Shown in pieces: positions 11,299 through 32,453 of a DNA stretch of 32,950 nucleotides. The DNA is from Planctomycetota bacterium (GTDB lineage: Bacteria; Planctomycetota; Planctomycetia; Planctomycetales; Planctomycetaceae): contig QWPB01000075.1 of the NCBI GenBank assembly GCA_003671275.1, positions 1 to 32,950 of the forward strand, written 5' to 3'. Every line of letters starts with the position of its first letter. Position 1 is the first letter of the stretch. Below the pieces are notes generated by a model that was given only the letters and a program-made list of their open reading frames with translations, was not told where the DNA came from and did not search any database. The position numbers and the translations under genes were made by a program.

Positions 11299-11323
11299 TG
11301 GACCTGCCTCCTGCCGGTAGCGA

Positions 11324-11344: not shown

Positions 11345-11531
11345 CGGTCAAAAACCCGGCAGATCGCCAGTCGAATGCCGTTTCCTGGCGTCAGATCCGG
11401 AATTCGAGTCATGATCGTTAAACTTCCACCGACGATAGTCCCCAGAAGACTCCTGACAGTTGGCAGAATGCCAGAACGTCATTACAATTCCTCCTCCCAT
11501 TTCCACTGGATGCGATTTGGACCGAAGCATC

Positions 11532-14313: not shown

Positions 14314-14314
14314 C

Positions 14315-15403: not shown

Positions 15404-15414
15404 GGCGGTCGTCC

Positions 15415-15429
15415 CGCCCGTGTCGGGCG
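15415..15429 (+). terminator. Hairpin after the three-gene operon
   Basis: CGCCCG and CGGGCG pair with a 3-nt loop 12 nt after the stop. No T-run follows, so it is a weak terminator candidate or an mRNA 3' stabiliser. Confidence 0.35.
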
Positions 15430-15511
15430 ACTCGACAAGCCCTCTGACTATCGCGCACTATCCTCTCTTTACCCAACTTTCGCGAACGCAGTAAACTCCC
15501 GCGCAGGAGAT

Positions 15512-15550
15512 TGTCCCGGCATGCTCAGCCGTTGGGATTATCACGGGACA
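15512..15550 (+). promoter_or_regulatory. Inverted repeat in the leader of the CvpA-like gene
   Basis: TGTCCCG (15512-15518) and CGGGACA (15544-15550) are exact complements around 25 nt. The right arm ends just before the GGAGGGGG ribosome site of the CvpA-like gene, so pairing could affect access to it. Confidence 0.35.
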
Positions 15551-15569
15551 CTCAGGAGGGGGCGTAGTC

Positions 15570-16904: not shown

Positions 16905-16955
16905 CAGCCTATGGAAAAATAGCGAATCGCACGGACCGGCCTGTCGGCCCGGATT

Positions 16956-19559
16956 TCAGGGTGTGGGGAGCAGGCACTCTTTTTCCAGCGATGCGTATTC
17001 CGCCGCCAGGGCAGGGCTCCCCAGCTGGGGATAGAGTATACGAGTGACCTTCAGAAGCTTGCGGCACTCGTCCAATGCTCCCAGGCGATGGGTGACTCGC
17101 ACAACCTCCAGCCTCCGACGGAACCACTCCAGCGTCCCCGGTCGTTCGAATCCTTCGAGCTGCTGATAGATCGCCTTGGCCCGCTTGAGATTCTCCGGCT
17201 GTCCGCGTTCCACCGACAACCGGCTGATCGTTTCCAGCAGTGACCGATCGCGAGGACGGGTCAACAGAACCTTTTCATAGATCTCAATCGCCTCCGGAAG
17301 ATCTCCGGTGGCGGTATACGCATCCGCCAGACATTGATCGAGCACGGCGATCACCTCCCGAGGAAGTGATTCCCGCTGCCGCTCCAGCCTTTGTGCCACA
17401 GCCAACTGCACTCGTCCCAGGTCGTGCCGGGCCACTGGCTCCAGAGTCTGTGACAGCTCGGCCAGCCCCGAGAGAATGACCAGCAGCTCTGCCGGATCGG
17501 AGGTGGTCAACTGTCGCAGCTGATGCTCAGCCTCTCCCATGCGTCCCAGGCCGGCCAGACAAACGATCTGCATCTGATGAACCGGGGCCAGCAGGGCAGT
17601 CCATCCGGTCGCCAGAGGAACACCGTCACGAGCTGCTTCGCGTTCCGCCAGATCACGGCTGTGGGCCACCTGCCGCAACAGAGTATCCGCATCGGCATAG
17701 CGTCGGGCACGGAAGTACAACAGTACCCGCGCCCAGCGCAAGGCATTCTCGGATTGTGCCAAAGACCATCCCAAGGGAGGCTTCGGCCAGCGAATCACCT
17801 GAACCTGAAAGGCCGCCGAGGCCTGCCGCTCCAAAGCATCACGCCCGGACGGTTCGCCAAATGTGGTCAGTAGCTTCTCATAACAATACGGCCACTGAGC
17901 TGCGGCATCGCCAGCCCGGACATGGTCGGCAGGAATCGATTCGAGGTACTGAATTGCGACCGGCCACTCTTCATGCCGCAAAGCATCCACGGCCAGCGCC
18001 CATTCGGCCTCCCCGCGTGAGGAATGCTTCGGGTAACGGGTCAGCAGTGTCTTGAGCTGTTCGGTGTAAGCCGACCTTAGAGCCGGGGAGGGTTGCTGAT
18101 CATGATGCTGTCCCACCGCCCAAGCCGCCAGCAACTGGGCATCCGCCCCGCGGACATCCTGGGGATAGTTTTTTTGAAAGTCGATCAACAGGCGACTCGC
18201 AACAGCCCAGTCTCGTGACTGAACGGCGATCGAGGCGCGGGTGTACGCCAGATCGGCGGCCAAGTCGGATTTACCCTCTCGCTGAGCCTGAGACGTCGCC
18301 CGTTCATAGACGGTCCCTGCAGCGATCCAGTCCTGAAGGCCGACCGCTCGTTCTCCTTCGCGAACCATGGCGGCGAGCTCTGCCCCATACTCGCGGGTCT
18401 GTGTGGCCCGGTTGATTAGCAAGTCGGCGTACGTTCGCCACGGTCCCGGAATCAATTGTCGCTGCGTGTCGATCTGCCGCTGTAACTCCTGTTCCAGCTT
18501 CTCCAACTCCTGTGGCGGGGCAGGGGAGGGGGCCTGTGGACTATGCAGTTTCTCCAGCGAGGCCAGCAGGCACTCCACGTTGATCTCTCGCAGTTCCGGC
18601 GACAAGCGGCCATGCTCACGCCCATAATCCAGGATCACCTGCATCGCATCCGCAGGACGCTGACGGGCCAACTCGGTGCGTGCCCATTCGCCGATCAGGG
18701 AGTCCGCCCAGACCGGCGGCACGCTGGTCAGCGGGATTGACTTCGCCCATGTGATCGCCCGATCGTGTTCCCCCTGCAGGCGCAGGATCTCGATCCTCGC
18801 AATACGAGCCAGCCAGTAGAACTGACTGGTTGACCGCTTTCCCTGCTCTCCGGCCAGCGTCTCCGCATCCAGCAGGGCGGCGACACGGTCAGGCCCCGTC
18901 AATTGCAATCGAGCGAACGTGATTCGCAGGCGGATGCCCAGATAGTCCAACTCGTCCTCGATCCTCCGGACATCCGCCGCCGACAGATCGCCAGGTCTCC
19001 GTCGCGGAGAGGAAGCGGGGCGTGAATCACCGGGAACCGTCCGGGCGGGCTTACCGGCCCACTGACGAAACTCTTCACCCGCGATCCGCAGATCGTCCAA
19101 CGCCTGCTGGACGGCAGCAATCGCTTGCGATTTCTGCGGTGGAGAGTCAGGGAGCAGCAGGCTTGACCAGAACTCAGCCAGAGCGAGATCGCAGAGCAGG
19201 GTGGCCTGCCGAGCCCGCACGACACCCCATCGGGCTTGCTGGCGATCACTAAGCAGTGGCTGAAGAACGGACCGGGCCCGGCCCCACATCTCCTGGGACT
19301 CTGCCGGGGTCGCGGCCTCCGCCGCATGGGCTGCCATGCACCGCGACAGTTCGACCGTGATCAACGCTCGATCACTCGGAGACAGGTCAGGATCGCTAAG
19401 CCGTGTCGGAGCATACTCTTCCGCCACTCGAAACAGACCCGCCGCCCGCAGTTCGGAAAAATAGGTGGACAGAGCCTCCCCGTCTTCCGCCTGACAGGCC
19501 ACCCCACCGGGGACCAGGGCGATCACCAGAATCCCCCAAATGAGCCGTGCTGAGGCCAC
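16956..19559 (-). CDS. Large exported TPR-like helical-repeat protein
   Basis: 867 residues from a GTG at 19559, with GGAGG about 11 nt upstream. A signal peptide is clear (LIWGILVIALVPGGVACQA), probably cut after Ala rather than lipidated, because the residues before Cys fit the lipobox poorly. The rest is almost entirely helical, with repeated pairs resembling tetratricopeptide repeats, for example LPEAIEIYEKVLLTRPRDRS and NLKRAKAIYQQLEG near the C-terminus, and Ala/Arg/Leu-rich helices throughout. I infer a periplasmic or envelope scaffold, but the partner cannot be identified. Planctomycetes have many such proteins. Confidence 0.8.
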   Translation of the reverse strand: MASARLIWGILVIALVPGGVACQAEDGEALSTYFSELRAAGLFRVAEEYAPTRLSDPDLSPSDRALITVELSRCMAAHAAEAATPAESQEMWGRARSVLQPLLSDRQQARWGVVRARQATLLCDLALAEFWSSLLLPDSPPQKSQAIAAVQQALDDLRIAGEEFRQWAGKPARTVPGDSRPASSPRRRPGDLSAADVRRIEDELDYLGIRLRITFARLQLTGPDRVAALLDAETLAGEQGKRSTSQFYWLARIARIEILRLQGEHDRAITWAKSIPLTSVPPVWADSLIGEWARTELARQRPADAMQVILDYGREHGRLSPELREINVECLLASLEKLHSPQAPSPAPPQELEKLEQELQRQIDTQRQLIPGPWRTYADLLINRATQTREYGAELAAMVREGERAVGLQDWIAAGTVYERATSQAQREGKSDLAADLAYTRASIAVQSRDWAVASRLLIDFQKNYPQDVRGADAQLLAAWAVGQHHDQQPSPALRSAYTEQLKTLLTRYPKHSSRGEAEWALAVDALRHEEWPVAIQYLESIPADHVRAGDAAAQWPYCYEKLLTTFGEPSGRDALERQASAAFQVQVIRWPKPPLGWSLAQSENALRWARVLLYFRARRYADADTLLRQVAHSRDLAEREAARDGVPLATGWTALLAPVHQMQIVCLAGLGRMGEAEHQLRQLTTSDPAELLVILSGLAELSQTLEPVARHDLGRVQLAVAQRLERQRESLPREVIAVLDQCLADAYTATGDLPEAIEIYEKVLLTRPRDRSLLETISRLSVERGQPENLKRAKAIYQQLEGFERPGTLEWFRRRLEVVRVTHRLGALDECRKLLKVTRILYPQLGSPALAAEYASLEKECLLPTP

Positions 19560-19913
19560 CGTTGCGTTATCCTCCGGACAGGGCAGCGAGACGACAGATT
19601 CTCTCGGCGAGGCCGCCGGACAGCAAGATGAGAACTCCCGATCCCAACGTCCCCCGCCTGAGCTTCTCTGTTCCCAAGTGAGAGAGGCCGAAGAATGTTC
19701 GCATGCTAATTTTTTCGTGACGCAATTCGAAGACTGACAGGAGTTTGTGACGCATGTACAGTACGTCGACCGAAAAAGTTCTTGAAATCACTACATTCCA
19801 TCGTAGAACTATCCCGTACGGCTCAAGTCTGGGCTTGCGTTCGAGCGGAGTGGCGAGTGGATCCCCTCCGATAGACATCGGCCACTCGCTGTGGCCTTCA
19901 GGGAGGATGAATC
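19560..19913. other. Divergent promoter region between TPR-like gene and csrA
   Basis: No gene found. An 8-bp direct repeat GTGACGCA occurs at 19717-19724 and 19747-19754, 30 bp apart (about three helical turns), which could be paired binding sites. A possible csrA promoter lies at 19782-19809. Confidence 0.5.
19782..19809 (+). promoter_or_regulatory. Possible sigma70-type promoter for csrA
   Basis: TTGAAA (19782-19787), a 16-nt spacer, then TAGAAC (19804-19809), about 105 nt before the csrA start. The match is moderate only. Confidence 0.3.
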
Positions 19914-20138
19914 ATGTTGGTGCTGACTCGTAAGCTGGGTGAATCGCTGGTGATTGATGGTGAAATCACCATCAAGGTTTCGCAGATTCACGGCAACCGG
20001 GTGAAATTGTGCGTGGATGCGCCTCGCTCCCACCGAGTGGCCCGGGCCGAGATCCGAGCGGAAGAGCAGCCCGTTCTGGCCGCTCGTCCTCCGCGAAGTG
20101 AACCCTCGGTCAAACCGGCTCCGGCGAATGCAAAGTAA
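19914..20138 (+). CDS. csrA: CsrA carbon-storage/translation regulator, copy 1
   Basis: 74 residues. MLVLTRKLGESLVI is the diagnostic CsrA start, followed by GEITIKVSQIHGNRVKLCVDAP and VARAEI, where the Arg corresponds to the key RNA-binding Arg44 of E. coli CsrA. CsrA dimers bind GGA motifs in mRNA leaders and block or stabilise them. The core is about 50 residues; the extra 20 are basic and Pro/Ala-rich. The leader itself contains GGGAGGA immediately before the ATG, so autorepression is plausible. A second, different csrA lies at 30072. The gene converges on an HU-like gene and a shared hairpin follows at 20188. Confidence 0.95.
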   Translation: MLVLTRKLGESLVIDGEITIKVSQIHGNRVKLCVDAPRSHRVARAEIRAEEQPVLAARPPRSEPSVKPAPANAK

Positions 20139-20181
20139 CGGGGCAGGGCATCCCCGAGAGTTATCCGCGAATCTCAGGTAT

Positions 20182-20211
20182 AAAAAAACTCCCCGGACAT
20201 GTCCGGGGAGT
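20182..20211 (-). terminator. Intrinsic terminator of the HU-like gene (shared with csrA)
   Basis: A perfect 24-bp palindrome (20188-20211; arms ACTCCCCGGACA and TGTCCGGGGAGT) is flanked by an A-run on its left, which on the minus strand becomes TTTTTTT directly after the stem. It is therefore a strong terminator for the HU-like gene. For csrA on the plus strand the same hairpin lacks a T-run. Confidence 0.9.
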
Positions 20212-20256
20212 CGGTGATCGGTATCCCGTTCGGGAGCGTAGGCTCCTGACAGGGAA

Positions 20257-20583
20257 CTAGATCATTTCTTTGAGCTTCTTGAGAGCACGGACCTTGACCA
20301 CCTTGCGAGCGGGCTTGGCCTTGATGGTGATCTTTTCACCAGTCCGAGGATTGATCCCTTCCTTGGCCGGAGTTGCCTTCTTGGTCTGAACCTGGATCTT
20401 GATCAGGCCGGGCAGGGCGAACACGCCTGGGCCCTTCTTGCCCAAGCTGGTCCCGATCAGCCCTTCGAGACCATCCAGAACCGCGACGATGTCCTTCTTG
20501 CCGAGGCCGGTGGACTCAGCCAACGTGCTGACCACTTCGGACTTCGACATGGGTTTCGGCTTGTCAGATGCTGCTTTGGCCAT
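20257..20583 (-). CDS. HU-family DNA-binding protein
   Basis: 108 residues. The ATG at 20583 has AAAGGAG 6 nt upstream; the longer frame would start before the predicted promoter's -10 and is rejected. A Lys-rich lead (MAKAASDKPKP) precedes an HU-like fold: MSKSEVVSTLAESTGLGKKD helices, then the DNA-contacting arm INPRTGEKITIKAKPARKVV, and a basic C-terminus. The Arg-Asn-Pro tip of classical HU arms is replaced by Ile-Asn-Pro-Arg-Thr-Gly. It is expected to bend and compact nucleoid DNA, which is of note in planctomycetes because of their condensed nucleoids. The gene stands alone with its own promoter and terminator. Confidence 0.88.
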   Translation of the reverse strand: MAKAASDKPKPMSKSEVVSTLAESTGLGKKDIVAVLDGLEGLIGTSLGKKGPGVFALPGLIKIQVQTKKATPAKEGINPRTGEKITIKAKPARKVVKVRALKKLKEMI

Positions 20584-20638
20584 AATTGCTCCTTTGTGAT
20601 GGCGCTCTCTCGCACTGCACGAGCAGTACACTACATGC

Positions 20639-20667
20639 AGTAAAACGCTAGTAAATCCACTTGTCAA
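20639..20667 (-). promoter_or_regulatory. Sigma70-type promoter of the HU-like gene
   Basis: Read on the minus strand: TTGACA (20662-20667), an exact -35, a 17-nt spacer, then TTTACT (20639-20644) as -10, about 55 nt before the ATG. ACTGC/GCAGT repeats lie just downstream (about 20614-20641) and could be an operator. Confidence 0.6.
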
Positions 20668-20791
20668 TCGGCAGATGGATCAAAAACCCTGAAAAAACAC
20701 TCGGAATTCAAAAGTTTCTGTCGAAACGGTGGTTTTTGGCTAGGTTTTTCACTGATCGGCCAGCGATGGTCCCGAAAACCGATGACATTGG

Positions 20792-22474
20792 CTAGGGTTT
20801 TTCCACGAGATCCCGTCCGCGCAACTCCCGATGAAACTTCCATCCCGGAATCAGAAAGGTCAGGGCACTGATGACCCCAAAGATTGCCAGTCCGACCGAG
20901 GGATAGAGGGCCATCGGCACCGCACAGAGAAACATCACGGCCGCCTGGACATAAAACTCACCCGAAAGCACACCAGCCTTTCCAATGAATACACTGGCAG
21001 CAAATAAGGCCAGGACGGGAGACAGGCTCAGCACGGGCAACCCCAGCAACCGTTCGATCAGAAACAGCATCGACGATGACGCCATACTGGCGGCCCACAG
21101 ATGAGCAATTTGTCTCTCGACGAATGTCACCGGTCCCGCCCGATGCCGCAACCCCCAGAACGCCAGGCCCCAGGTTCCCAGCCCGACGGTCCATAAGGCC
21201 ACATACGGCATCCGCGATCGAATATCGATCCACTGCATATAATTGGTCGTCAGACACAGAACCAGCAACACCAGCGAATGCCACATCCAGAGCAGGCCCC
21301 ATTGCCGGAGGATTCCCACATGATGAGTCGGACGAAAAGCCCGACTCAGGACATCCGCCAACCGCGAGGATCGGGCCTGGACGGGTTCGTGATTCAAGTA
21401 GGCCCGCAGGTCATCGGCGAATTCGTCCGCACTTACATACCGCAGATCAGAGGGCTTCTGCAAAGCCTTCAACAGGATCATTTCCAAGTCTGGATCGATG
21501 GCCGGATTCAGCAGACGCGGCGGCGGCGGCTCATGCTCCAGGGCCATAATGACCGCATCTGCGGGTGACGCACACAGGAAGGGCGGGCGCCCCGTCACCA
21601 TCGCAAACAGCACCGATCCCAAACTATAGATATCCGCCGCAGGTCCGATCTGCCGGGGATCACCCACAGCCTGCTCCGGAGCCATGTACCCCGGAGTGCC
21701 CAGGATGGCTCCCGTGCGAGTGGTCGCATGAGCCAGTTCGGAAGGCCCGGCCCCCCCATCCCGCTCATGAACAATTCTCGCCAGGCCGAAGTCCGAAACG
21801 TACGGATGGCCCGCCCGATCCAGCAGGATATTCGAAGGCTTCAAATCGCGATGCAGCACCCCCTGTCGATGCGCGTGTCCGATGGCCCGACACACGGGAA
21901 TCAGTATCTCACAGGCTTCCCGCGGTACAATGGGACTCCGGGACAGCCGCTCCGCCAATGTTTCTCCCTCGACCAGTTGCATACTGAAATACGGCAGGCC
22001 CCCCTGCTCTCCCACTTCATAGAATGACACAATGTGAGGATGGTTCAGCTGGGCCGCCGAGGCCGCTTCCGTTCGAAATCGGCGAAAATCTTCCGATGTG
22101 GAAAACAGCCCGCGGACCATCATTTTGAGGGCCACATCCCGGTTCAAGCTCCGCTGCCGGGCCCGATAGACAACTCCCATTCCGCCCCGACCAATCTCAA
22201 CGAGCTGTTCGTAATCCGCGAACCCCGGATGAGAATTCAGGAGGGGCAGGGGGGCACCATCCGGGAAATGCCCTTCATCCCGAGAGTCGGCGAACCAGGA
22301 GACCGTTCTGCCCAGGGCACTGGCCAACTGGGCGGTGCCGTACAACTCTCGCAGTTCATCCACCAGATCGGGATTCCGAGTTGCAATTTCATTCCAGTCG
22401 ATCGGAGCCCCGGGATGGACGAGCAGATCTTCGAGCTGATGATGCAATCGGGTGTCCCGTGAATCATTCGACAT
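20792..22474 (-). CDS. Membrane Ser/Thr protein kinase (Hanks type)
   Basis: 560 residues. I use the ATG at 22474 (GGGGG about 6 nt upstream), since the upstream open frame lacks family features. Residues 1-85 are a helical N-terminal part. The kinase domain spans about 89-360: IGRGGMGVVY loop (Gly95-Gly100), VALK Lys117, HRDLKPSN (Asp210), DFG (Asp228-Gly230), then GTPGYMAPEQ and DIYSLGSVL. About six hydrophobic helices follow (about 395-540), ending in a short cytoplasmic tail. All catalytic residues are present, so it should be active. It is divergent from the small membrane protein at 22716. The signal sensed is unknown. Confidence 0.93.
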   Translation of the reverse strand: MSNDSRDTRLHHQLEDLLVHPGAPIDWNEIATRNPDLVDELRELYGTAQLASALGRTVSWFADSRDEGHFPDGAPLPLLNSHPGFADYEQLVEIGRGGMGVVYRARQRSLNRDVALKMMVRGLFSTSEDFRRFRTEAASAAQLNHPHIVSFYEVGEQGGLPYFSMQLVEGETLAERLSRSPIVPREACEILIPVCRAIGHAHRQGVLHRDLKPSNILLDRAGHPYVSDFGLARIVHERDGGAGPSELAHATTRTGAILGTPGYMAPEQAVGDPRQIGPAADIYSLGSVLFAMVTGRPPFLCASPADAVIMALEHEPPPPRLLNPAIDPDLEMILLKALQKPSDLRYVSADEFADDLRAYLNHEPVQARSSRLADVLSRAFRPTHHVGILRQWGLLWMWHSLVLLVLCLTTNYMQWIDIRSRMPYVALWTVGLGTWGLAFWGLRHRAGPVTFVERQIAHLWAASMASSSMLFLIERLLGLPVLSLSPVLALFAASVFIGKAGVLSGEFYVQAAVMFLCAVPMALYPSVGLAIFGVISALTFLIPGWKFHRELRGRDLVEKP

Positions 22475-22616
22475 TTCCGCCCCCAATCTCACCGCGTGGG
22501 GCAGGGGCCCCCACCACATCCTGGCATGGGAGTTGTAATCGGACCACCCGTCCCCCGCGAGCCGGAGTGAGTTTACGCAGAACATCCGTTGTATTTACGC
22601 ATCGTGAAGTTTCCTT

Positions 22617-23250: not shown

Positions 23251-23279
23251 TGGGTCAGTGACTCACACGGAGAGTGGCC

Positions 23280-24188
23280 ATGCGGGGATGGATTCCAAGG
23301 ATGTGCTGTTGTGTCTGGCTTCTGGTCGGATGCGGAACCGTTCTACCGGCGGAAGAGCGATCACCGATCGTAGCCCGGGTGAACGGTCACCCCGTCACAC
23401 AACGGGAAGTCGATCTGGAGTTGCTCACCTCCATTGGATCTCGCCCGCCAACCCCTTCCGATCAAACCGCCGCGCGGGAGCGAGTGATCGATCGCCGACT
23501 GGTCAACGAGACCCTGGGGACATCCACAACCAATGTCCTGGCCGAAGATGTCGAGAATCTACTGCAAGCCACCCGGACGGCCGTGGAGAGTGGGGAAGAC
23601 ACACTGGACGCCGTCCTGAAACGATTGAATCTGTCAGAAGACGATCTGCGGGCGGCCTTCCGCATGCAACTGGCCTGGCAAGCTCATGTCCGCCGATCGC
23701 TCTCCGATTCCCAGCTGCGGATGTATTTTGAATCGCACCGTTCCCGTTTCGATGGAACGCAGGTCCGCATCCGACAGCTCGTCCGCACTTTGAAGCCGGA
23801 TGCCGACAAATCCCAATGGACGACCGCCGAGTCCCAACTGGCGGATATCCGTAAACAACTCGTGGCCGGTGACCTGAAGTTTGAATCCGCCGCTCGCGAA
23901 TTCTCCCAAAGCCCAACGGCAGCGAACGGGGGAGATGTGGGGTTTGTAAAACCGCGAGGCCAGCTTCCTTCGGCGGTGAGCGAGGCGGCGTTTCAGCTGC
24001 AGGTGGGGGAACTGAGTCCACCGATTCGCTCCACGGTAGGCGTTCACCTGATTGAGGTCACCGAGATCCGCGCTGGCGAGTTAAGCCTGGAAGACGCCCG
24101 GCCCGATCTAATGCGTGAACTGGGCAACAAACTGTGGGTATCCACCGTCCGAACGCTGCGTGCCAAAGCCAAGATTGTTGGCCCCTGA
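23280..24188 (+). CDS. Parvulin-type peptidyl-prolyl isomerase (SurA/PrsA-like), probable lipoprotein
   Basis: 302 residues from the ATG at 23280 (GGAG 7 nt upstream; an in-frame GTG at 23274 is less well placed). The N-terminus has a lipobox, LVGC (Cys18), in a hydrophobic signal with a Cys cluster (MCCC), so membrane anchoring like PrsA is plausible. Residues about 33-150 form a SurA-type helical chaperone region beginning VARVNGHPVTQREVD. Residues about 158-262 are a parvulin rotamase domain: VRIRQLV, then FAxxAREFSQSPTAANGGD-like (here FESAAREFSQSPTAANGGD), VGFVKPRGQLP, and VGVHLIEVTEI. It should catalyse proline isomerisation and help fold exported or outer-membrane proteins. The next 700 bp carry no gene. 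Confidence 0.88.
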   Translation: MRGWIPRMCCCVWLLVGCGTVLPAEERSPIVARVNGHPVTQREVDLELLTSIGSRPPTPSDQTAARERVIDRRLVNETLGTSTTNVLAEDVENLLQATRTAVESGEDTLDAVLKRLNLSEDDLRAAFRMQLAWQAHVRRSLSDSQLRMYFESHRSRFDGTQVRIRQLVRTLKPDADKSQWTTAESQLADIRKQLVAGDLKFESAAREFSQSPTAANGGDVGFVKPRGQLPSAVSEAAFQLQVGELSPPIRSTVGVHLIEVTEIRAGELSLEDARPDLMRELGNKLWVSTVRTLRAKAKIVGP

Positions 24189-24357
24189 CCGCCTGAGTGT
24201 CGCCCTCCGAGCACCATCGGGCGGCGGCGGCGAAAGTCGGCGTCGCCACAAGCCCGCCATTGGCACGCGGGCCGGCTCCGGGAGGAAAGCCTCATCCGCA
24301 GTGCGCGCGGGCCGTCTCAGACCCACACAGTGTTTTCCCTAGTCATTCCAGGGGTTA

Positions 24358-24385
24358 ATTGAACATAACGGACATTATCGGACGT
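24358..24385 (-). other. dif: Candidate dif site (XerC/XerD chromosome-dimer resolution)
   Basis: Read on the minus strand, the XerC-side arm is ACGTCCGATAA (24385-24375), the centre TGTCCG (24374-24369) and the XerD-side arm TTATGTTCAAT (24368-24358): exactly 11 + 6 + 11. The XerD arm matches the E. coli arm TTATGTTAAAT at 10 of 11 positions. The XerC arm's CCGATAA matches the form I recall for actinobacterial dif sites. The inner ATAA/TTAT dyad is perfect. It sits in a gene-free convergent interval, and FtsK-orienting-like octamers change strand around it. Confidence 0.7.
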
Positions 24386-24393
24386 TGGTAGTG

Positions 24394-24415
24394 TGGGTTG
24401 ATCCTCGCCAACCCA
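24394..24415. other. Small hairpin next to the dif-like site
   Basis: TGGGTTG and CAACCCA are exact complements with an 8-nt loop, beginning 9 bp after the dif-like site. The role is unknown and chance is possible. Confidence 0.3.
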
Positions 24416-24831
24416 GGGCCTGTCCGGGTATCCGCACCGCCAACCAGCGGCTCCGTTTGCCTTCCTGGCCGGCAGTCTGATGACTGACCCGAACCACTCC
24501 ATCCGGACGCCCGATGACGAACTCCGAATTCATGATCGCGAATGAACCGCACAAACCCGCCCACTGCCCCAGCGGGTTCCAACTCGAATCACTCGGCTTC
24601 CGAGGCGAGCTTCCCGGATCGACCACCCCGAACCGCACTGGACGACCATGAGTGCCGGGCATTCGCCGTTCGCAACCACTCCGATCTTGAACAACAGTGA
24701 GTCACTTCCGTGAAGGTACAACGAGTCCATCGGAAACGATCCCGCCGGGCCGCCAAACCCATTCGTCACAAGCCCACGGGGGGAGTCACTATTCAGAATT
24801 CGGGCGGTGTTATTCGGCTCGCACTCCTCGC

Positions 24832-24859
24832 GAAAACTGGACGCGAACGAGTTCCGGCA
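24832..24859 (+). repeat. Dispersed repeat, copy A
   Basis: A segment of about 28 nt containing AAAACT, ACGCGA and CGAGTTCCGGCAG matches a segment near 29505-29532 at about 25 of 28 positions. Both copies lie in gene-free stretches in the same orientation. Confidence 0.5.
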
Positions 24860-24896
24860 GATTCGCCGTACCCGAAATCTCAAATGCGACAGCGCA

Positions 24897-26366
24897 TTAG
24901 ATCACGTCAGGCAACTCATCCATCGACATCAGCGGGATGTCATCCACCGGCTGCGGCGTTGGCGGCTTGGGAGCGACGGGTACGGGAGGCTGCGGTACCG
25001 GAGTGGGAACCAACGGACGGGGAGCCACAGCCCCGGGCGGAACCATGCCGGGCATCCCCGGCATCATGCCCGGCTGTGGCATTCCGGGCATCGGGTAACC
25101 CGGCATCGCCTGTCCGGGCATCATACCGGGCATCGGCATGCCGGGCATTCCACCAGGATACATTCCGGGCATGGGCATGCCGGGAAAAACGCCGGGCGGA
25201 TATCCCATGGGCATGGCCTGCGGCATCCCCATCATCGGCTGGGGCATCATCGGCTGCGGAGCGGCAGGAGCTGCAGGCCGGGCGGGGGCGATTCCAGCTT
25301 TGCCGGACTTGTCTCCTTCCACCCGCCCCTTGGCTTCGGCCCGCTTACCGTGCAAAGCGGCCTTTGTCTTGGCGGCTTCTTCGGCAGCTTTCTTACGTTC
25401 TTCGGGCGTTCGTTCCGCATCGGACCGGCTGTCCATGCGGTGGGCCATTGAGTCAATGAACCGCTCTTCGTCGGATTTCGCCTTGTTCCGCAAATAGGTC
25501 TCGGGAGCTTCCTTGAAAACCTTGAGTGTCCGCAGCGCATTGACCACATCGTGCATTGATGCAAACCGGTCTTTCGGCTTCTTGGCGATCATCTTCATGA
25601 TGAACTGATCGAGTTCCGGCGTCAGATTCGGGTTGTAGCTCGACGGCTTATCGGGGGTATCGCGGACATGCGCCATCAGCAGATCATTGGGATTGCTCAT
25701 GATGAACGGGGCTCGCCCCACGAGCAGTTCAAAAAACATGATCCCCAGGCTGTAGATGTCCGCCGAGAACGTGAGCGGCTGACGCTGGATCAGTTCCGGG
25801 GCGAGGTACGTACGCGTCCCCTGAATCACCACGCTCGACTTGCGAGTGAGTAACGCGGAGAGCATCCCCGTCGGCTTGGCGGCCAGCGAGAAGTCGATGA
25901 TCCGCAGATCCCCGCCCTTCGTCACCAGCACGTTGTCCGGCTTGATGTCCTTGTGGACCCAGCCCTTGTCATGAATGAAGGCCAGGGCCTGCGCGCAGCC
26001 CTCCATGATTTTCTGTGCCCGAATCTGGGCGTTGGCGTGGTCATTCCGGATCATCCCCTTGAGGTTGCCCCCCCGGAAATGCTCCATGATGAAGTATGCG
26101 TGATCGCGACCAATCGCGGTCTCCATGATTCGGATGATGTTGGGGTGTTCGAGTTGCTTGGCAATATTCGCCTCATTCTTCAACTCGTTTTTCAGCTCCT
26201 TGTCCTTCATGTGCTCGGGAAGCAGGAGTTTCATCGCATACGGCTGCTGATTGGCGATATGCTTGACCTCCCAGATCTGGGAGATCCCGCCCGTTGCAAT
26301 ACAATTCACCAGTTGATACTGGTCAATCTGGTTTTGATTGGGATTCGGTTTTTCGTTCTCGGCCAT
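24897..26366 (-). CDS. Non-canonical Ser/Thr kinase (HKD/DFS) with Met-Pro-Gly-rich tail
   Basis: 489 residues from the ATG at 26366 (GAGGA about 10 nt upstream). The kinase domain spans about 16-282: the Gly loop is reduced to ATGGISQIW, the ATP Lys is Lys46 (YAMK), the catalytic loop is HKDIKPDN (Asp140) instead of HRD, and the metal motif is DFS (Asp158-Ser160) instead of DFG; GTRTYLAPEL and DIYSLGIMFFELLVG follow. Key Lys and Asp residues are present, so activity is possible. A charged helix (about 290-350) leads to an 80-residue tail (371-450) built of Met, Pro and Gly (PGMPMPGMYPG-like units), then a Pro/Val stretch and an acidic end. No transmembrane helix is seen, unlike the kinase at 20792. 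The tail function is unknown. Confidence 0.9.
   Translation of the reverse strand: MAENEKPNPNQNQIDQYQLVNCIATGGISQIWEVKHIANQQPYAMKLLLPEHMKDKELKNELKNEANIAKQLEHPNIIRIMETAIGRDHAYFIMEHFRGGNLKGMIRNDHANAQIRAQKIMEGCAQALAFIHDKGWVHKDIKPDNVLVTKGGDLRIIDFSLAAKPTGMLSALLTRKSSVVIQGTRTYLAPELIQRQPLTFSADIYSLGIMFFELLVGRAPFIMSNPNDLLMAHVRDTPDKPSSYNPNLTPELDQFIMKMIAKKPKDRFASMHDVVNALRTLKVFKEAPETYLRNKAKSDEERFIDSMAHRMDSRSDAERTPEERKKAAEEAAKTKAALHGKRAEAKGRVEGDKSGKAGIAPARPAAPAAPQPMMPQPMMGMPQAMPMGYPPGVFPGMPMPGMYPGGMPGMPMPGMMPGQAMPGYPMPGMPQPGMMPGMPGMVPPGAVAPRPLVPTPVPQPPVPVAPKPPTPQPVDDIPLMSMDELPDVI
25017..25256 (-). repeat. Low-complexity coding repeat (Met-Pro-Gly tail)
   Basis: Within the kinase gene, short imperfect units reading GGCATGCCGGG or close variants on the plus strand repeat about every 9-18 nt. 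They encode the PGM/MPG motifs. Codon choice differs little between units, so recent expansion by slippage or unequal exchange is plausible. Confidence 0.75.
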
Positions 26367-26656
26367 GATGCGACCGTCCTCACAGCGTGACAGCAGAGAC
26401 CCCTGCCCGGCCAACGCGAACAGACCGTTCACGCGGGACAGATTCTTCGAGTATATCGCCCCCGGCAAGGTGAACGCATCCCGAAAACCCGATGTTATGC
26501 CATCATCCTGAGTTTTCGTTACGTCCCGCGGGACCGGCCCCAAGGCACCGCCGCCCCTCCGAATCCCATGACGAATTCACGGGTTCTATTGATTTCGTCG
26601 CTGATGAATCAGCATTCCAATGGTCCCTCGCGGCGGATTGGCGGAATCCCGAATTT

Positions 26657-27784
26657 CTAAAAGTTGTTTCCACTGGAGGCCGCTGGACGACCGGGAGCTC
26701 CCGGCTGGGGATTCTTTCCTGTGTTTCCCGGCGCGAGGGGAGTGGCTGGTCGATTCGGGTCGCGTGGCACGATCCGGGCACCATCCACAATCAGCTCTGA
26801 CGACTTCAGTACCAGTTCATCCGTGGAAGAAAACCGACCGCTCACGAACTGAAAATCAGCCCCGATCTGCCCCAGCAGTTGCACGGGAACATCGCGGACA
26901 AACCCATCGCGAATCACCTGCACCTGGCGCCCGCCCTGCTCTGCATTCCGCAGCGCTGTGGTGGGAACTTCTGCGACGGGCTGGCGAGGGATCATTCCCG
27001 AATAGACCGTCTGGCCGGAACGCCACTGACCGGTGGGGTTTTCCAGAATGATCCGCCCGGTGGCAGGTGACGGAAACAGCTCGCGCAGGGAGTCCAAGGA
27101 AGCTGTCAGAGGCAGGATCACAGCCACTTTGGCCGAAACAACGTCTCCTTCCACCTGCAATTCAATGGCATCCCCTGGCTTCGTGGATCGGCCATCCACG
27201 GGGGCCTCAACGAAGAATTGCGTGGGATCAATGACGGTCACTAGCGGTTGCCCGGCGCGAATGTACTCACCATCGATGACATGAATGGCAACCACCTGCC
27301 CTGGGAAGGGACTCCGAATGCTGGCCTGATTGGCTTCCAGCTCCGCCAGAGCCAAGTCGGCCTCAGCCACCTGGACACGCGCTTCGGCCCCGCCCTTGCC
27401 CCCCGCGGCGAGATCGGCTTTGGCAGCCTTCAAGCTCGCCGCCGCCCGCTGCACTCGAAGCTGATCAGCCCGAGAATCCAGCCGCAACACTTCCCCTTGA
27501 GCTGGAACCGCCTGCCCCAATTGGGTGAGGACTCCGATCACCACTCCATCCACGGTCGCGGCCAGCGTGACCTGCCGAGTGGGTGCTAGATGCAGGTTGA
27601 CTTGGTACTTCAATGGATCTCGAAACAGAACCGGCGTGCGGTCGATCACCACCGGACGTCCGGCAACCAATGCGGGAGACTCCGGTTTCGCCTCGTCACC
27701 GGCCCCCCTCTGAGCCCATGCGGGACTCGTCAAAAAACAGGTCGCGACCCACCCACCCACGTACAACACAGCTCGCCATACCAT
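26657..27784 (-). CDS. HlyD/RND-type periplasmic adaptor-like protein
   Basis: 375 residues; the ATG at 27784 has AGGAG 8 nt upstream and a signal peptide (VGGWVATCFLTSPAWAQ) is evident. The order is that of a membrane-fusion protein: first barrel-like strands and a half lipoyl motif (TLAATVDGVVIGVLTQLGQAV), a short helical hairpin (about 108-152, Ala/Leu-rich), second half lipoyl motif (ASIRSPFPGQVVAIHVIDGE), then beta-barrel and membrane-proximal domains, ending in a Pro/Asn-rich tail. Adaptors link inner-membrane pumps to outer-membrane channels, yet no transporter or TolC-like gene is adjacent. The BBP7-like outer-membrane protein lies upstream on the same strand, separated by 186 nt with a hairpin. 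Confidence 0.85.
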   Translation of the reverse strand: MVWRAVLYVGGWVATCFLTSPAWAQRGAGDEAKPESPALVAGRPVVIDRTPVLFRDPLKYQVNLHLAPTRQVTLAATVDGVVIGVLTQLGQAVPAQGEVLRLDSRADQLRVQRAAASLKAAKADLAAGGKGGAEARVQVAEADLALAELEANQASIRSPFPGQVVAIHVIDGEYIRAGQPLVTVIDPTQFFVEAPVDGRSTKPGDAIELQVEGDVVSAKVAVILPLTASLDSLRELFPSPATGRIILENPTGQWRSGQTVYSGMIPRQPVAEVPTTALRNAEQGGRQVQVIRDGFVRDVPVQLLGQIGADFQFVSGRFSSTDELVLKSSELIVDGARIVPRDPNRPATPLAPGNTGKNPQPGAPGRPAASSGNNF

Positions 27785-27918
27785 GGTACGACTCCTGATT
27801 TCACGCGGCCCCGCCTACCGAAGACGGAAACACCCGATGTCCGGCGGAAGATGTTGCACCGCCCTGCTCCATCAGGCGCGAGCTTACGCCGGAATAATCG
27901 GCAGGTCAAATGCACAAC

Positions 27919-27940
27919 GGGCGACCCGTGATGGTCGCCC
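27919..27940 (-). terminator. Hairpin after the BBP7-like gene
   Basis: GGGCGACC and GGTCGCCC form a perfect 8-bp stem with a 6-nt loop 31 nt past the BBP7-like stop. The downstream minus-strand sequence is only moderately T-rich (GTTGTGCATTTG), so termination may be partial and some read-through into the adaptor gene is possible. Confidence 0.5.
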
Positions 27941-27970
27941 GCAGGGCCACTCGAAATCGTCTGACACCCA

Positions 27971-29203
27971 CTAGAACCGCCAGTCCATGCCGACGTTGAA
28001 TCCGTGAATCACGAACGTATGGCGGGCCGTGTCCATGGTAATGGCGGGAGGGTCAGTTGGCTGCCGGGTCGAATCCCACACAATCTGCCGATCTGCCAAG
28101 GAAATCCCATTCATCGCCATGAAGTCATACCCCATGGTCACACTGAAATTCGGACGCAGATGAATCCGGGCAAAGGCGCCCAGATCAACCGTAGGGGTGA
28201 ACCGCGTCGTCTCGTCTTGAGTCAGAAACGGCAACTCCGTGTCGGTGTAGATCTGTGCCGTCGACACCTCACTGTGATTGCGATTGATACCGAACAGGAA
28301 CTTCGGCTCCACACCGAGGGTCAGCCACTTCCCCTTCGCTTCCATCCGCAGTCCCAGCTGGGGCCCGAAAATGTTGTTATTGGTAATGGAGTCGATCTGG
28401 TGGAATGTGGCGGTCTGTTGATCGGCCCCTTCAATCTCAAACTCATTCCGGAAGTTCATGTAGCCAAAGCCCACGATCGGGGAGACTTCCATGGCGACAT
28501 TCGGTGTGATCGGCGGAAAGACGAAATTGGCCTCGGTCCCGTAAAGAGCCGTTGTGAGGGTCGAACGCATGCCCCCATCGAAGTTGATAAAGTCCTGAAG
28601 TTGACCGGTCGTCGTGGTAATCGGATTCAAGGGAATGACAGGAATCACCGGCCCCGGAAAAAGCAGTGTGATATCCGAATTGAACAGCACTTCATGATCG
28701 ACGCGGTTCTGTTTCTCCGCGAACCCCCAGAAACTGCCTTCGAACGTGAATTGTTCTGTCGGCAATCCAAAGGAGAGGCGCAGACCGTTGTTGTTCTCGT
28801 AGTTGGTTCGTTCCAGGCTGGTCGTCCGCGCCAGAATCCCCGGTCGAGCAGCACCGCCACGATCTGTGGCTTGAAATAGAGGAACCGTGGCAGCGGTCAC
28901 GGGCTCGGCACCGATCGGTCGACTACCGGGCTCTGTCAGCCGGTAATTCAGGTACTCCACCCGCAGCCAGCTTTCCGAGAACACGTTACCGATCGCCACA
29001 TCCAGCGGCGTCTCGTCGTAGAACGGAGCGGGCCGAGAGGGGACCAGCTGGGCATTCAGCATCTGACGCTGATATAGCTCCTGGCCGGGAACCGGTCCGG
29101 GCATACCGCGAAACCCGGCGGGGGCTGTCCCCTGCCCTTGTGCAAACAAGGCGGGTACCCACGCGAGCCAGGCAATCATGAGGAGGGCGAGCCGCCGAGG
29201 CAT
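27971..29203 (-). CDS. BBP7-like outer-membrane beta-barrel protein
   Basis: 410 residues. I prefer the ATG at 29203 to the one at 29212, because the GGAAGGA sequence lies 9 nt before the former but touches the latter. A signal peptide is clear (RLALLMIAWLAWVPALFAQ). The mature part alternates aromatic/hydrophobic strands: WLRVEYLNYRL near the start, many FEGSFWGFAEK- and GFGYMNFRNEFEI-like strands, and a final GFNVGMDWRF ending in aromatic-Arg-Phe, typical of outer-membrane barrels. The opening WLRxEYL and the ending match the BBP7 family of Rhodopirellula as I know it. The cargo or substrate is unknown. A short hydrophilic region after the signal peptide may be a periplasmic extension. Confidence 0.82.
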   Translation of the reverse strand: MPRRLALLMIAWLAWVPALFAQGQGTAPAGFRGMPGPVPGQELYQRQMLNAQLVPSRPAPFYDETPLDVAIGNVFSESWLRVEYLNYRLTEPGSRPIGAEPVTAATVPLFQATDRGGAARPGILARTTSLERTNYENNNGLRLSFGLPTEQFTFEGSFWGFAEKQNRVDHEVLFNSDITLLFPGPVIPVIPLNPITTTTGQLQDFINFDGGMRSTLTTALYGTEANFVFPPITPNVAMEVSPIVGFGYMNFRNEFEIEGADQQTATFHQIDSITNNNIFGPQLGLRMEAKGKWLTLGVEPKFLFGINRNHSEVSTAQIYTDTELPFLTQDETTRFTPTVDLGAFARIHLRPNFSVTMGYDFMAMNGISLADRQIVWDSTRQPTDPPAITMDTARHTFVIHGFNVGMDWRF

Positions 29204-30071
29204 CGTGGCCATTCCTTCCAGAGGAACTCCGGTAATCTCTGCTCAGCCATGCTGAACAGCCCCCGCACGATTGCACGGGACAACACCGTTATCCCTGTAT
29301 CGGTCAGAGAAGGAGTTCGACTTGGGTAGAAAAGTCCGGTCAGTTAAAATTTAACGGTTATGATGAATTCGAGGGCCGCTTGCCCGCCGATCAGTGGGAC
29401 GTCTTTCACTATATATGTAATATGTATATGGAGTGTCGAGCTGGCAGCGGCCTCACCGTTCAGCAATTCAGGTTGCGACAATCCGCATCCAGTCACACAC
29501 ACAGTGAAAACTAAACGCGAGCGAGTTCCGGCAGCTCCGTAGTCGCCAAGTCGCAAACATGGAGTCGCACGCCCTGACAAAACTCGATGATGTAATTGAT
29601 TTCTTCCCATTCTTACAACAGCGTTCATCGCAGATCAATCCAGCGCCATTCATAAGAGACACCCCGCCCCCCTACCCGACTTGGTTTTGGCACTTCGCAG
29701 CCCCCCTGAATGGCCAGATTTGCCCCTCCATTGGCATTTCACCGGCAGATGTTGCCGCAACCGAGCGACATCCGGCACTCCCTGCTGATGTCCGTTCGAC
29801 TACGCATTTCTACAAGCAGGTTTGACCCCGATTCCCAAAAAAGTGTTCACTCCCTATTGCCACATTGCTTCAATCGCCGGTGGACAATAAAACCACAAGA
29901 CAAAACACTAATAACACGACAATAACCAGTGAAACACCAACAATCTGGCACGGCATATGCCTTACCTCTTTCCGACGGCAACGACAGGTCAACACACACT
30001 CGCCAATGGATCGCGAACGACCTGCCGGGGTGCCTGGAATAACCCAAAACTCTGAAAATTGGAGAACTGCC
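29204..30071. other. Long gene-free stretch between BBP7-like and csrA2 genes
   Basis: About 870 bp with no convincing gene. It contains an AT-rich zone (29343-29355 is GTTAAA-A-TTTAAC, an exact odd-centred palindrome; 29410-29430 is TATA-rich), the second copy of a dispersed repeat (about 29505-29532), and presumably both divergent promoters. A 94-codon minus frame (29344-29628) and an 88-codon plus frame (29559-29825) lack ribosome sites and signal features. A small RNA gene is possible but I see no defined promoter-terminator pair. Confidence 0.55.
29505..29532 (+). repeat. Dispersed repeat, copy B
   Basis: Matches copy A (about 24832-24859) at about 25 of 28 positions, including the exact 13-mer CGAGTTCCGGCAG. 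Flanks diverge quickly on both sides. Confidence 0.5.
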
Positions 30072-30299
30072 ATGCTCGTCCTGACCCGCAAAAAAAGCGA
30101 AATGATTCGAATCGGTGACAACATCGTCATCAAGGTGATCTCCACCGGAAACGGAAAGGTGAAGATCGGCATCGAAGCCCCGAATGACGTTCGCGTCGTC
30201 CGCGCTGAACTCTGTGAACAGCCGCAAACTCGGGTGATCCCTACCCAATCGTTACGCGATCGGGTTCTTGCTCGTCGCTCGGTCATCGCCGCGAAATAG
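30072..30299 (+). CDS. csrA: CsrA-family regulator, copy 2
   Basis: 75 residues from the ATG at 30072 (GGAG about 7 nt upstream); the in-frame extension back to 29865 adds no CsrA sequence. MLVLTRKKSEMIRI opens the family fold, followed by GDNIVIKVISTGNGKVKIGIEAP and VRVVRAEL, again with the RNA-binding Arg. The classical GES after the start (as in copy 1, LGES) is KSEM here. The C-terminal extension is basic (LRDRVLARRSVIAAK) and unlike that of copy 1 except for the final Ala-Lys. The ribosome site contains GGA. An S41 protease gene follows 88 nt downstream after two hairpins, so the two may be cotranscribed. Confidence 0.95.
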   Translation: MLVLTRKKSEMIRIGDNIVIKVISTGNGKVKIGIEAPNDVRVVRAELCEQPQTRVIPTQSLRDRVLARRSVIAAK

Positions 30300-30316
30300 G
30301 TTGCAGATTTTTCAAT

Positions 30317-30341
30317 TCGAGAACTATACGATGGTTCTCGA
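30317..30341 (+). promoter_or_regulatory. Hairpin between csrA2 and the protease gene
   Basis: TCGAGAAC and GTTCTCGA form an exact 8-bp stem with a 9-nt loop. No T-run follows, so it is more likely a leader or processing hairpin than a terminator. Confidence 0.4.
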
Positions 30342-30351
30342 TCTTCCAAAT

Positions 30352-30366
30352 GCCGCTTCAGGCGGC
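30352..30366 (+). promoter_or_regulatory. Second small hairpin before the protease gene
   Basis: GCCGC and GCGGC pair around TTCAG, ending 9 nt before the AAGGA ribosome site of the protease gene, close enough to modulate its translation. Confidence 0.35.
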
Positions 30367-30387
30367 TCGGTCGAAAAGGACTTTCCC

Positions 30388-32256
30388 ATGTTCGCTCAGT
30401 CAATCACTCGCAAGCTGCTCGCTCCGCTGTTCGCCATGGTCAGCCTGGTGCTCGTCCTCGGCGTGACCCTCTCCTTGGCTCAGGAAACCCGGCTCGTCCT
30501 TCCGACGACCGACTCCCCCCAGATCAACACCCAGACCCCGCCCACGGCCCCTGCCCTGCTGATCGCCACAGATATTGAACTCCGTGACGAAAACTTTCCG
30601 GTGAAAGCCCCTCCGGAATTAATCCAGACAGCCATTCGGCCCAGTGCCGTAAAGCCAGTGAATAACCCCAGCGGTTACACCCCGGCTCCGACCTACACGA
30701 TTCCCGCGTATCACACCCCGAATGCGACTCCCGCTCCCATTGGCAACGGGATGTATGAAACCGATCCCGAAAAACTCCAACTGCGAATCACCGCACGGTA
30801 CCAGGATCCGAAGATGCTCGCGTTCCTGAACTCGACCAGCATGCGACAGATGTCGTCGCTCTTCTCGGAAGCTTCGCGGAGGATCGATACCCGGCACGTG
30901 AACCCCCTGTCCTATGAGAAGCGGACCGATGCGGCTCTGGAAGGTCTCCTGCGGGCTCTCAACAATCCGGAATTCCTGAAGGTCGCCGGAGCCCAGGGAA
31001 CCGACGCGAACCTGCAACAGGCCATCTCGAACATCAGCCAGATGATCGGAGCCAACCCGGCCCGATCGGCGGAAGACGCCCTGGGCACCATGCAGTGGGC
31101 CGCTGACACGCTGAACCGGAATCTCGGCCTGCGTCAGGAAGTGGTGGCCCTCGAATTCATGAACGCCACCCTCGATTCACTCGACAGATTCTCAGCTTTC
31201 GTCCCCAACAAGGCGAGTGCTTCAATGGAACCTTCGGCTTCCACCAACGATCAGACCGCTGGCTTGGAAGAACGGATCGTGGGAGTCGGAATCGAGATGA
31301 AACAGCACGACCAGGGGGCCTTGATCATGGGCACGATCGAAGGCGGTTCCGCCGCAGCCACCGGCCTGAAGAAGGGCGACATCCTCACCGCCATCAACCA
31401 TCAGAACCTGACCGGAATGGGCCTGGGACAAGTCGCCGAATTGATCTCGGGCTCAGAAGGCACCACCGTCCACATCGTGATCAACCGGGCCGGTAAGAAG
31501 TACGAAGCCACCCTGCTCCGCCAGAAAGTCTATGTCAGCAGTGTGGCAAACTCCCAGATGGTGAACGACACGGTCGGATACATCCGAGTCAAGCAGTTCT
31601 CGGATTCGTCAACCGAAGACCTCGAAAAGGCCATGCTCAAACTCTACAACAACAGCCAGATGGACACGCTGGTCCTCGACATGCGAGGAAACCCCGGTGG
31701 ACTGCTGACCGAGGCCATCCAGTTGTCCGACCTGTTCCTGCCCTCGGGCGTCATCGTCTCCACTAAGGGACGGACAGCTGCCGACAACTCGACGGAATCG
31801 GCCAAGCGAACCAAAACCTGGAGCTTGCCCCTGATCGTCCTGATCGACGAGAACAGCGCCAGTGCCAGCGAGATATTCGCTGCGGCGATCCAGGAAAATG
31901 GTCGTGGGGTGATCGTCGGTCGGCACTCCTACGGCAAGGGAACCGTGCAGACGCACTTCCCTCTGAACACGGCGTCGGCTGTGCTGAAACTGACCACGGC
32001 CAAGTTCTACGCCCCCAGTGGCCGGGAAATGGCTGGCGTCGGAGTGACCCCGGACTACGCCGTCACCGATGTGAATGATGAAACGGCCACCACGCTGGCT
32101 GACGACAACGATGTGCGAACCGCCGTGCAGATCGCCCAGACCGGCCTGCCGAATCAGTTGGCCCAGGCCGCTGGTCAGGGAAAGCGGTTGAGCGTCCCAA
32201 TGGCGACCTCACCGCGTGTCTTCGAAGAACTCCCCGCTCCGGCTACGGAACGGTAA
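30388..32256 (+). CDS. S41-family C-terminal processing peptidase (CtpA/Tsp-like)
   Basis: 622 residues. The ATG at 30388 has AAGGA 7 nt upstream and starts a signal peptide (hydrophobic residues about 10-29, ending LSLAQE); the longer frame overlaps csrA2. A 270-residue N-terminal region, first Pro/Thr-rich then helical, precedes a PDZ domain (about 299-385, with SAAATGLKKGDILTAINHQ). The catalytic domain reads GYIRVKQFSDSS, VLDMRGNPGGLL, ENSASASE and YGKGTVQ. The serine-lysine pair is Ser492 and Lys517, 25 residues apart as in the family. It should cleave exported proteins near their C-termini in the periplasm. Substrates are unknown. A hairpin directly after the stop and a terminator at 32454 end the unit. 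Confidence 0.94.
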   Translation: MFAQSITRKLLAPLFAMVSLVLVLGVTLSLAQETRLVLPTTDSPQINTQTPPTAPALLIATDIELRDENFPVKAPPELIQTAIRPSAVKPVNNPSGYTPAPTYTIPAYHTPNATPAPIGNGMYETDPEKLQLRITARYQDPKMLAFLNSTSMRQMSSLFSEASRRIDTRHVNPLSYEKRTDAALEGLLRALNNPEFLKVAGAQGTDANLQQAISNISQMIGANPARSAEDALGTMQWAADTLNRNLGLRQEVVALEFMNATLDSLDRFSAFVPNKASASMEPSASTNDQTAGLEERIVGVGIEMKQHDQGALIMGTIEGGSAAATGLKKGDILTAINHQNLTGMGLGQVAELISGSEGTTVHIVINRAGKKYEATLLRQKVYVSSVANSQMVNDTVGYIRVKQFSDSSTEDLEKAMLKLYNNSQMDTLVLDMRGNPGGLLTEAIQLSDLFLPSGVIVSTKGRTAADNSTESAKRTKTWSLPLIVLIDENSASASEIFAAAIQENGRGVIVGRHSYGKGTVQTHFPLNTASAVLKLTTAKFYAPSGREMAGVGVTPDYAVTDVNDETATTLADDNDVRTAVQIAQTGLPNQLAQAAGQGKRLSVPMATSPRVFEELPAPATER

Positions 32257-32281
32257 GGGAGGCGATCGAAGATCGTCTCCC
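32257..32281 (+). terminator. Hairpin immediately after the protease stop
   Basis: An 11-bp stem with one G-T pair (GGGAGGCGATC / GATCGTCTCCC) and a GAA loop starts at the base after the stop. No T-run, so likely a 3' mRNA-end stabiliser or partial terminator. Confidence 0.5.
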
Positions 32282-32290
32282 CGCAAGACA

Positions 32291-32358
32291 GCCTTTCCAG
32301 GCCGCCTCAGCCGGGAACAGTCGATCTCAAACGGCCAGGCCAGGAAAGGCCGTCCTAC
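32291..32358. repeat. Inverted repeat with CCGTCCTAC end
   Basis: GCCTTTCCAGGCCG (32291-32304) pairs with 32337-32350 at 12 of 14 positions, and the right side continues into CCGTCCTAC (32350-32358), which resembles the arm of the palindrome at 10229-10258. Probably a dispersed planctomycete intergenic repeat. Confidence 0.4.
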
Positions 32359-32453
32359 CGGGTTCTTTCACTCCGGCTGCTTGCATCCAGTTCAAGCGAC
32401 AGTGACCGACTTCCGCAGAACGCCCTGCCCTGATTGACAACCTGGAAGCCCAC

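Follow-up and report, generated by a model that had tools for sequence, protein, structure and literature searches.

A probable chromosomal dif site with converging KOPS octamers in a bacterium of the phylum Planctomycetota

Where, and by which machinery, are chromosome dimers resolved in bacteria that divide without FtsZ? The Planctomycetes are described as dividing in this way (PMC10591338), and ftsK is reported as essential in one of them, Planctopirus limnophila (PMC10632474). A 2011 survey placed dif, the site of XerC/XerD recombination, in 641 organisms; its predictions cover 14 of 14 Chlamydiae and 0 of 1 Planctomycetes (PMC3025954). In this work we examine a 32,950-nt stretch of planctomycete DNA (contig QWPB01000075.1, hereafter the window) from an assembly of 5.03 Mb in 198 contigs; positions are those of the window. 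A sequence-only reading had proposed that a 28-bp element at 24358-24385 is a dif site, a proposal that our analyses support: the element is very probably the chromosomal dif of its host. XerCD/dif is a known kind of site, met here in a phylum for whose single representative the 2011 survey gave no prediction. We hold this view because the element is present in a single copy, is conserved throughout its family, is accompanied by Xer and FtsK genes, is the point on which KOPS (FtsK-orienting polar sequences) converge, and has elements inserted exactly at it in relatives.

Sequence, copy number and conservation of the site

The sequence on the minus strand is as the earlier reading described it, with two 11-bp arms around a 6-bp centre and a perfect inner dyad, ATAA/TTAT. 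Measured against E. coli dif, the identity is 18/28 (XerD arm 10/11, centre 3/6, XerC arm 5/11), and the XerD arm is indeed one position off. No other place in the window is as close to E. coli dif, the runner-up reaching 16. Searching the whole genome with up to three mismatches returned the 28-mer once and its reversed control not at all, so there are no several equal copies. At the same tolerance the core ATAATGTNNNTTATGTT is uninformative alone, with 66 matches in the genome against 81 for the reversed control. With no mismatches it occurs at the dif place only; the next best matches have two, and no better dif was seen elsewhere in the genome.

To place the site in the phylum we used a survey set of 393 Planctomycetota genomes, each at least 90% complete. 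With up to three mismatches, TCCGATAATGTCNGTTATGTTNAA was found in 108 of them (reversed control, 1), including 45 of the 46 from the window's own family. Allowing one mismatch, the looser GTCCGATAATNNNNNTTATGTNNA gave matches in 192 (control hit, 1). Counted by hand from the per-genome table, with positions taken among the matches listed, these comprise all 46 genomes of the family, 49 of the 53 others in the class and 97 of 294 elsewhere. It occurs exactly once in 45 of the family genomes. In the genome collection, 21 contigs fit a pattern with 25 fixed bases, every one carrying a planctomycete label.

The earlier reading also asked whether only the site itself is conserved in related loci. 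What is conserved across 25 aligned family loci (27 were given, two being dropped as the site lay at the end of the stretch) is a block of 30 bp, made up of the site and a single flanking base at either end; outside this block no more than isolated columns come to about 1 bit. The script's pattern fixed positions 1-16 and many loci were fetched by patterns containing most of the site, so the conservation of the arms is partly built in; that of the outermost A and T is not. When the arms were scored without a forced pattern, the XerC arm was intact in 18/18 family loci (L009, L018, L022, L195 and L197-L210, the altered second copy in L195 being set aside).

Further columns rich in A/T are common to the family loci at +40-42, +51-53 and +61-62 from the start of the site, that is 12 to 34 bp past the XerD arm. 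A test of their periodicity was not clean, with a peak at 13 among the periods tried and not at 10.5. A hairpin 15-40 bp past the XerD arm, which looked shared by eye, was set aside: only the A/T-rich columns stand out there, and we make no claim for it.

KOPS polarity, Xer and FtsK genes, and insertions at the site

The motif GGGNAGGG is stated to be the KOPS of E. coli and Vibrio (PMC13342612, PMC5357621). In the window its copies number +10/-0 to the left of dif and +1/-6 to the right (Fisher p = 5.7e-4), and those of the variant GRGCAGGG +8/-2 and +0/-7. We extended this to contiguous 400 kb around dif in four single-contig relatives, G052, G018 and G164 from the same family and G305 from another. 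The left/right counts of GGGNAGGG are +15-2/+3-21, +20-2/+2-27, +29-1/+1-29 and +25-2/+4-31, respectively. When all octamers are ranked by skew towards dif, GGGCAGGG comes 2nd, 1st, 1st and 1st of 65,536 in these genomes, and GGGNAGGG comes 5th, 2nd, 1st and 1st among 98,304 one-gap words; GGGNAGGG was examined first and the ranking of all words came afterwards. In the family, the polarity of GAGCAGGG falls little short of that of GGGCAGGG. In the window, G052, G018 and G305, dif falls inside the best split interval; in G164 it is about 4 kb away from that interval. Far from dif, in sampled stretches of G164 and G052, the polarity fades.

The absence of xerC and xerD, which had been named as a reason to abandon the proposal, did not occur: both genes are present. 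The product of the first (contig C102) scores 346 bits against an NCBIfam cut-off of 335.15, and that of the second (contig C27) 346.9 bits against 329.6; the latter also aligns with solved XerD (1a0p) over 281 residues (5.9e-62). In FtsK, a protein of 784 aa encoded on contig C108, four domains (4TM, alpha, motor and gamma) score above their Pfam cut-offs. The gamma domain matches solved FtsK gamma domains including the 2ve8/2ve9 set, of which 2ve9 contains KOPS DNA. The helix of this domain that reads KOPS is YGRAARMVDWM here and YNRAARMIEAM in the solved 2j5o/2ve8 domain.

A search for FtsZ itself (TIGR00065) in 72 planctomycete genomes, that of the window included, found it in none, and gave a hit in 13 of 14 controls; all 72 genomes have the FtsK gamma domain. 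They were chosen by hand: 46 from the family, 18 from the class, among which four have no dif match, and eight others. The tie to division without FtsZ that the earlier reading pointed out is sound as a question, not as an answer. As a side observation, of the 18 family genomes assembled in one or two contigs, 11, spread over four genera, have ftsK no more than about 130 kb from dif, with distances taken by hand (G036, G052, G108, G119, G144, G164, G172, G184, G214, G234 and G238).

A different kind of evidence comes from relatives in which the site has been interrupted. Three genomes, G052, G172 and G311, carry a second, altered dif copy. In the first two this copy keeps the central hexamer and has its XerC arm altered to ACGTCTGATCA, and a phage-like element lies exactly between the two copies (Table 1). 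By eye, the outer flanks match the uninterrupted sites of relatives apart from a few base differences (G052 compared with G036, G172 with G234). The elements carry genes of filamentous-phage type: each has members of the M13 protein IV and Zot families, for phage assembly, together with a gene for a G2P-like replication protein, and no integrase was seen among the proteins scanned (G052: nine translated, eight compared with Pfam and five with PHROGs; G172: seven, one and four). CTXphi-type phages are described as using XerCD in this manner (PMC4246890). Such precise insertion is the best hint we have that Xer recombination happens at dif in living cells. In G311 (L196/L197, 7175924-7199077) the second copy is weaker and degenerate, 23,130 bp from the main one, with Zot-family, two-component and ParB-like genes in between. 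One scan of viral contigs with the family dif pattern gave 0 matches.

By analogy with E. coli, these parts would work as follows. XerC would bind ACGTCCGATAA and XerD would bind TTATGTTCAAT. Should recombination fuse sister chromosomes into a dimer, membrane-anchored FtsK would load on the GRGCAGGG/GGGNAGGG octamers that point at dif from both sides. It would then pump DNA until it meets XerCD at dif, where its gamma domain may switch XerD on. Strand exchange at the central hexamer, first by XerD and then by XerC, would turn the dimer into two monomers. If the E. coli system is a guide, FtsK presumably sits at the division site, here built without FtsZ.

Points against a dif site, and other readings of it

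A number of results weigh against the site being the chromosomal dif. At a terminus, GC skew is expected to be positive on the left and negative on the right. The predicted skew extremum did not materialize: cumulative skew in the window makes no turn at dif, and there is no positive-to-negative turn at dif in G052, G018, G164 or G305. Over 200 kb on each side, the mean skews (left/right) in these four are -0.067/-0.073, 0.012/0.033, -0.036/-0.039 and 0.051/0.067. In 40-kb steps one sign is kept throughout in three of the relatives, G305 being noisy. Skew at third codon positions, taken for the genes of each strand, has no such turn at dif in the four relatives either. In twenty 20-kb samples of G164, a coarse measure, skew is mostly positive as far as 2.88 Mb and negative in those from 3.12 Mb on, which puts the change of sign at least 0.58 Mb from dif (at 3.705 of 5.21 Mb); similarly coarse samples of G052 change sign several times. 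To these may be added that the XerC arm agrees with E. coli at just 5 of 11 positions, and that two of the ten GRGCAGGG octamers to the left of dif point the wrong way. Furthermore, GTCCGATAATNNNNNTTATGTNNA is unmatched in 201 of the 393 genomes (four in the class, the rest outside), whose dif may differ. Some genomes have it more than once: G134, the remaining member of the family, has two matches, and within the rest of the class G357 has three and G319, G367 and G387 have two each, with several more such genomes outside the class.

We rejected GC skew as a marker of the terminus, as it makes no turn at dif in the window, the four 400-kb regions, the samples or the third positions. For Proteobacteria and Firmicutes, dif is reported to lie within a few percent of the skew shift point (Kono et al. 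2011, PMC3025954), and a point emphasised in a 2026 paper is that dif is not necessarily the place of termination (PMC13342612). The missing extremum is not taken as a refutation, because KOPS polarity, the more direct landmark, switches at dif. We infer that dif and KOPS mark the end-point of segregation, and that the end-point of replication lies elsewhere or has been blurred by rearrangement. The gene dnaA was also tried as a marker of the origin and rejected: all 32 of 32 genomes have at least two DnaA-domain genes, and in a comparison by hand these are not consistently opposite dif. Many single-contig records begin at a short protein (a frame of ~340-390 aa) with a weak DnaA-domain match, e.g. 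G172:46-507, and a stronger, longer dnaA match is found elsewhere in those genomes; dnaA is therefore a poor origin marker.

How else might the site be explained? The identity of 18/28 to E. coli dif is unconvincing by itself, and the core finds no more matches in the genome than its control does, as a chance match to a short degenerate motif would predict. Against this, the only core match without mismatches is at the site, and its kin are spread widely through the phylum with almost no control hits, so that coincidence can for practical purposes be dismissed. The elements in G052 and G172, which resemble Xer-using prophages, suggest another origin: the site could be the attachment site, or a remnant, of such a mobile element and not the host's own. 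We consider this very improbable. The site is in every family genome, once in all of them except G134, and its conservation in genomes without a second copy contradicts such an origin. In its own genome it is single, with no phage gene among the six scanned genes neighbouring it, and in relatives the octamer polarity over 400 kb turns at it.

The alternative that deserves most attention concerns function. XerD, or XerCD, might bind the site mainly to unload SMC (structural maintenance of chromosomes) complexes where the chromosome arms meet, with dimer resolution minor or absent. Unloading of this kind is reported for B. subtilis and suggested to be general (PMC13342612), and conservation of the arms by itself would fit. 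We consider this account unlikely. The central hexamer, which is important for strand exchange, is conserved as well, being TGTC[CT]G in most of the family sites listed; phage-like elements have inserted exactly at the site in relatives; and KOPS converge on it. A dif at which dimers are resolved remains by far our preferred reading.

An interval of about 700 bp between convergent genes had been described as gene-free; the genes do converge and the interval measures 708 bp (Table 1). It also holds two open reading frames of 95 and 117 aa, the first overlapping the dif site. Neither has a tblastn match in 43 dif loci, which is weak evidence that the interval is free of genes, because the rotamase gene is likewise unmatched in those loci. 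Relatives of the kinase gene (E up to 1e-50) occur in 21 of these 43 loci, which, given how common kinases are, does not establish orthology. Relatives of the HlyD-type gene occur in eight of the 43 loci searched.

Table 1. Features of the window (32,950 nt) and of the elements inserted at dif in two relatives
Feature	Position	Strand	Details
dif site, 28 bp	24385..24358	minus	ACGTCCGATAA-TGTCCG-TTATGTTCAAT
XerC-binding arm (predicted)	24375..24385	-	ACGTCCGATAA; 11/11 in 18 scored family loci
Central hexamer	24369..24374	-	TGTCCG; most listed family sites TGTCCG or TGTCTG
XerD-binding arm (predicted)	24358..24368	-	TTATGTTCAAT; 10/11 as E. coli
Family-conserved block, 30 bp	24357..24386	-	28-bp site with A before and T after, each in 25/25 loci
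Interval between convergent genes, 708 bp	24189..24896	.	
Left neighbour, PPIC-type rotamase (SurA-like) gene	23274..24188	+	
Right neighbour, Ser/Thr protein kinase gene	24897..26543	-	
HlyD-type gene, next one out	26657..27784	-	
Ten GGGNAGGG (KOPS) octamers left of dif	3180..22506	all +	starts 3180, 5257, 17009, 18085, 18518, 18523, 20141, 20410, 22244, 22499
Six GGGNAGGG octamers right of dif	26401..32430	-	low ends 26401, 29130, 29670, 30239, 30549, 32423
One opposite-pointing GGGNAGGG right of dif	27303	+	
Element in G052	C1 3561729-3575926 (L084 end + L085 1-14197)		14,170 bp between dif copies
Element in G172	L195 4803-13541		8,711 bp between dif copies

Inverted pairs in relatives and comparison with known systems

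In some relatives the site is not alone. We searched for a second, inverted site within 130 bp of the main one, scored out of 22, and found it in nine of the 21 loci of the 25-fixed-base pattern (L021, L026, L027, L028, L030, L032, L033, L034 and L037). Four of these nine are labelled Gemmataceae, one Singulisphaera, and four by phylum or class only. It was also found in four of 22 class loci, all from family f6 (G319, G367, G262 and G387; L255, L256, L257 and L212); the f6 loci of G254 and G306 have no inverted second site. In the window's own family it is absent from 16 of 16 loci. In the window itself the best other place within 130 bp of dif scores 13/22 and is on the same strand. Elsewhere in the phylum, one of 30 loci passed, at the lowest score only (14/22). 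Random segments often reach that score: a place with 14-16 was present in 141 out of 1,780. For the 13 real pairs the scores are 16-22.

The pairs have a common geometry, with the XerC arms facing each other and the XerD arms outward. The spacer is 36-37 bp in the nine loci and 29, 48, 48 and 49 bp in f6, and the central hexamers differ within the pair in 13 of 13. The attachment site of CTXphi is likewise described as an inverted pair (PMC4246890), so the pairs may descend from a phage. Nine different contigs nevertheless show almost the same spacing, which favours a feature of the host.

These observations lead us to a tentative hypothesis, which is more likely wrong than right: that the FtsK/dif axis of planctomycetes is decoupled from that of replication. 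On this view KOPS polarity changes at dif and strand composition elsewhere, so FtsK, essential in Planctopirus, may set the end-point of segregation in cells without FtsZ. In some lineages (the contigs labelled Gemmataceae and Singulisphaera, and f6) the site might have been made symmetrical, as pairs whose XerD arms point outward, with 29-49 bp between the two sites and a different hexamer in each. FtsK arriving from either side would then meet a XerD arm first, and the two sites could not recombine together. The function assigned here to the paired dif is conjecture.

The locus is of interest for its complete FtsK-KOPS-XerCD-dif set in cells without FtsZ, for the mismatch with GC skew and for the paired form in relatives. 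Now that the site, the KOPS motif and the recombinases are available, the place and time of Xer recombination in a cell without a Z ring can be addressed directly. In addition, dif offers a reference point for the terminus region of genomes in which GC skew is misleading.

Our literature search, confined to parts of open-licence PMC papers, found no report of a planctomycete dif or of an inverted dif pair on a host chromosome. The elements in G052 and G172 are like the CTXphi/VGJphi prophages at dif1 of Vibrio cholerae, as these are outlined in PMC4246890, in their filamentous-phage genes and in lying exactly between two dif copies. They differ in the phylum of the host, in copies that are 14.2 and 8.7 kb apart, and in a second copy that keeps the hexamer and has the altered XerC arm (ACGTCTGATCA). 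With the XerCD/dif-FtsK system of E. coli, the planctomycete one shares the 11 + 6 + 11 layout, a XerD arm alike at 10 of 11 positions, a centre starting with TGT and two recombinases, as well as FtsK with membrane, motor and gamma domains and GGGNAGGG octamers that point to dif. In contrast to E. coli, the XerC arm agrees at 5 of 11 positions, GAGCAGGG is nearly as polarised as GGGCAGGG, the gamma helix has YGRAARMVDWM in place of YNRAARMIEAM (2j5o/2ve8), GC skew does not turn at dif, and FtsZ was found in 0 of 72 genomes. In this last respect the dif of Chlamydiae, as listed by Kono et al. (2011, PMC3025954), offers a parallel, that phylum likewise being without FtsZ.
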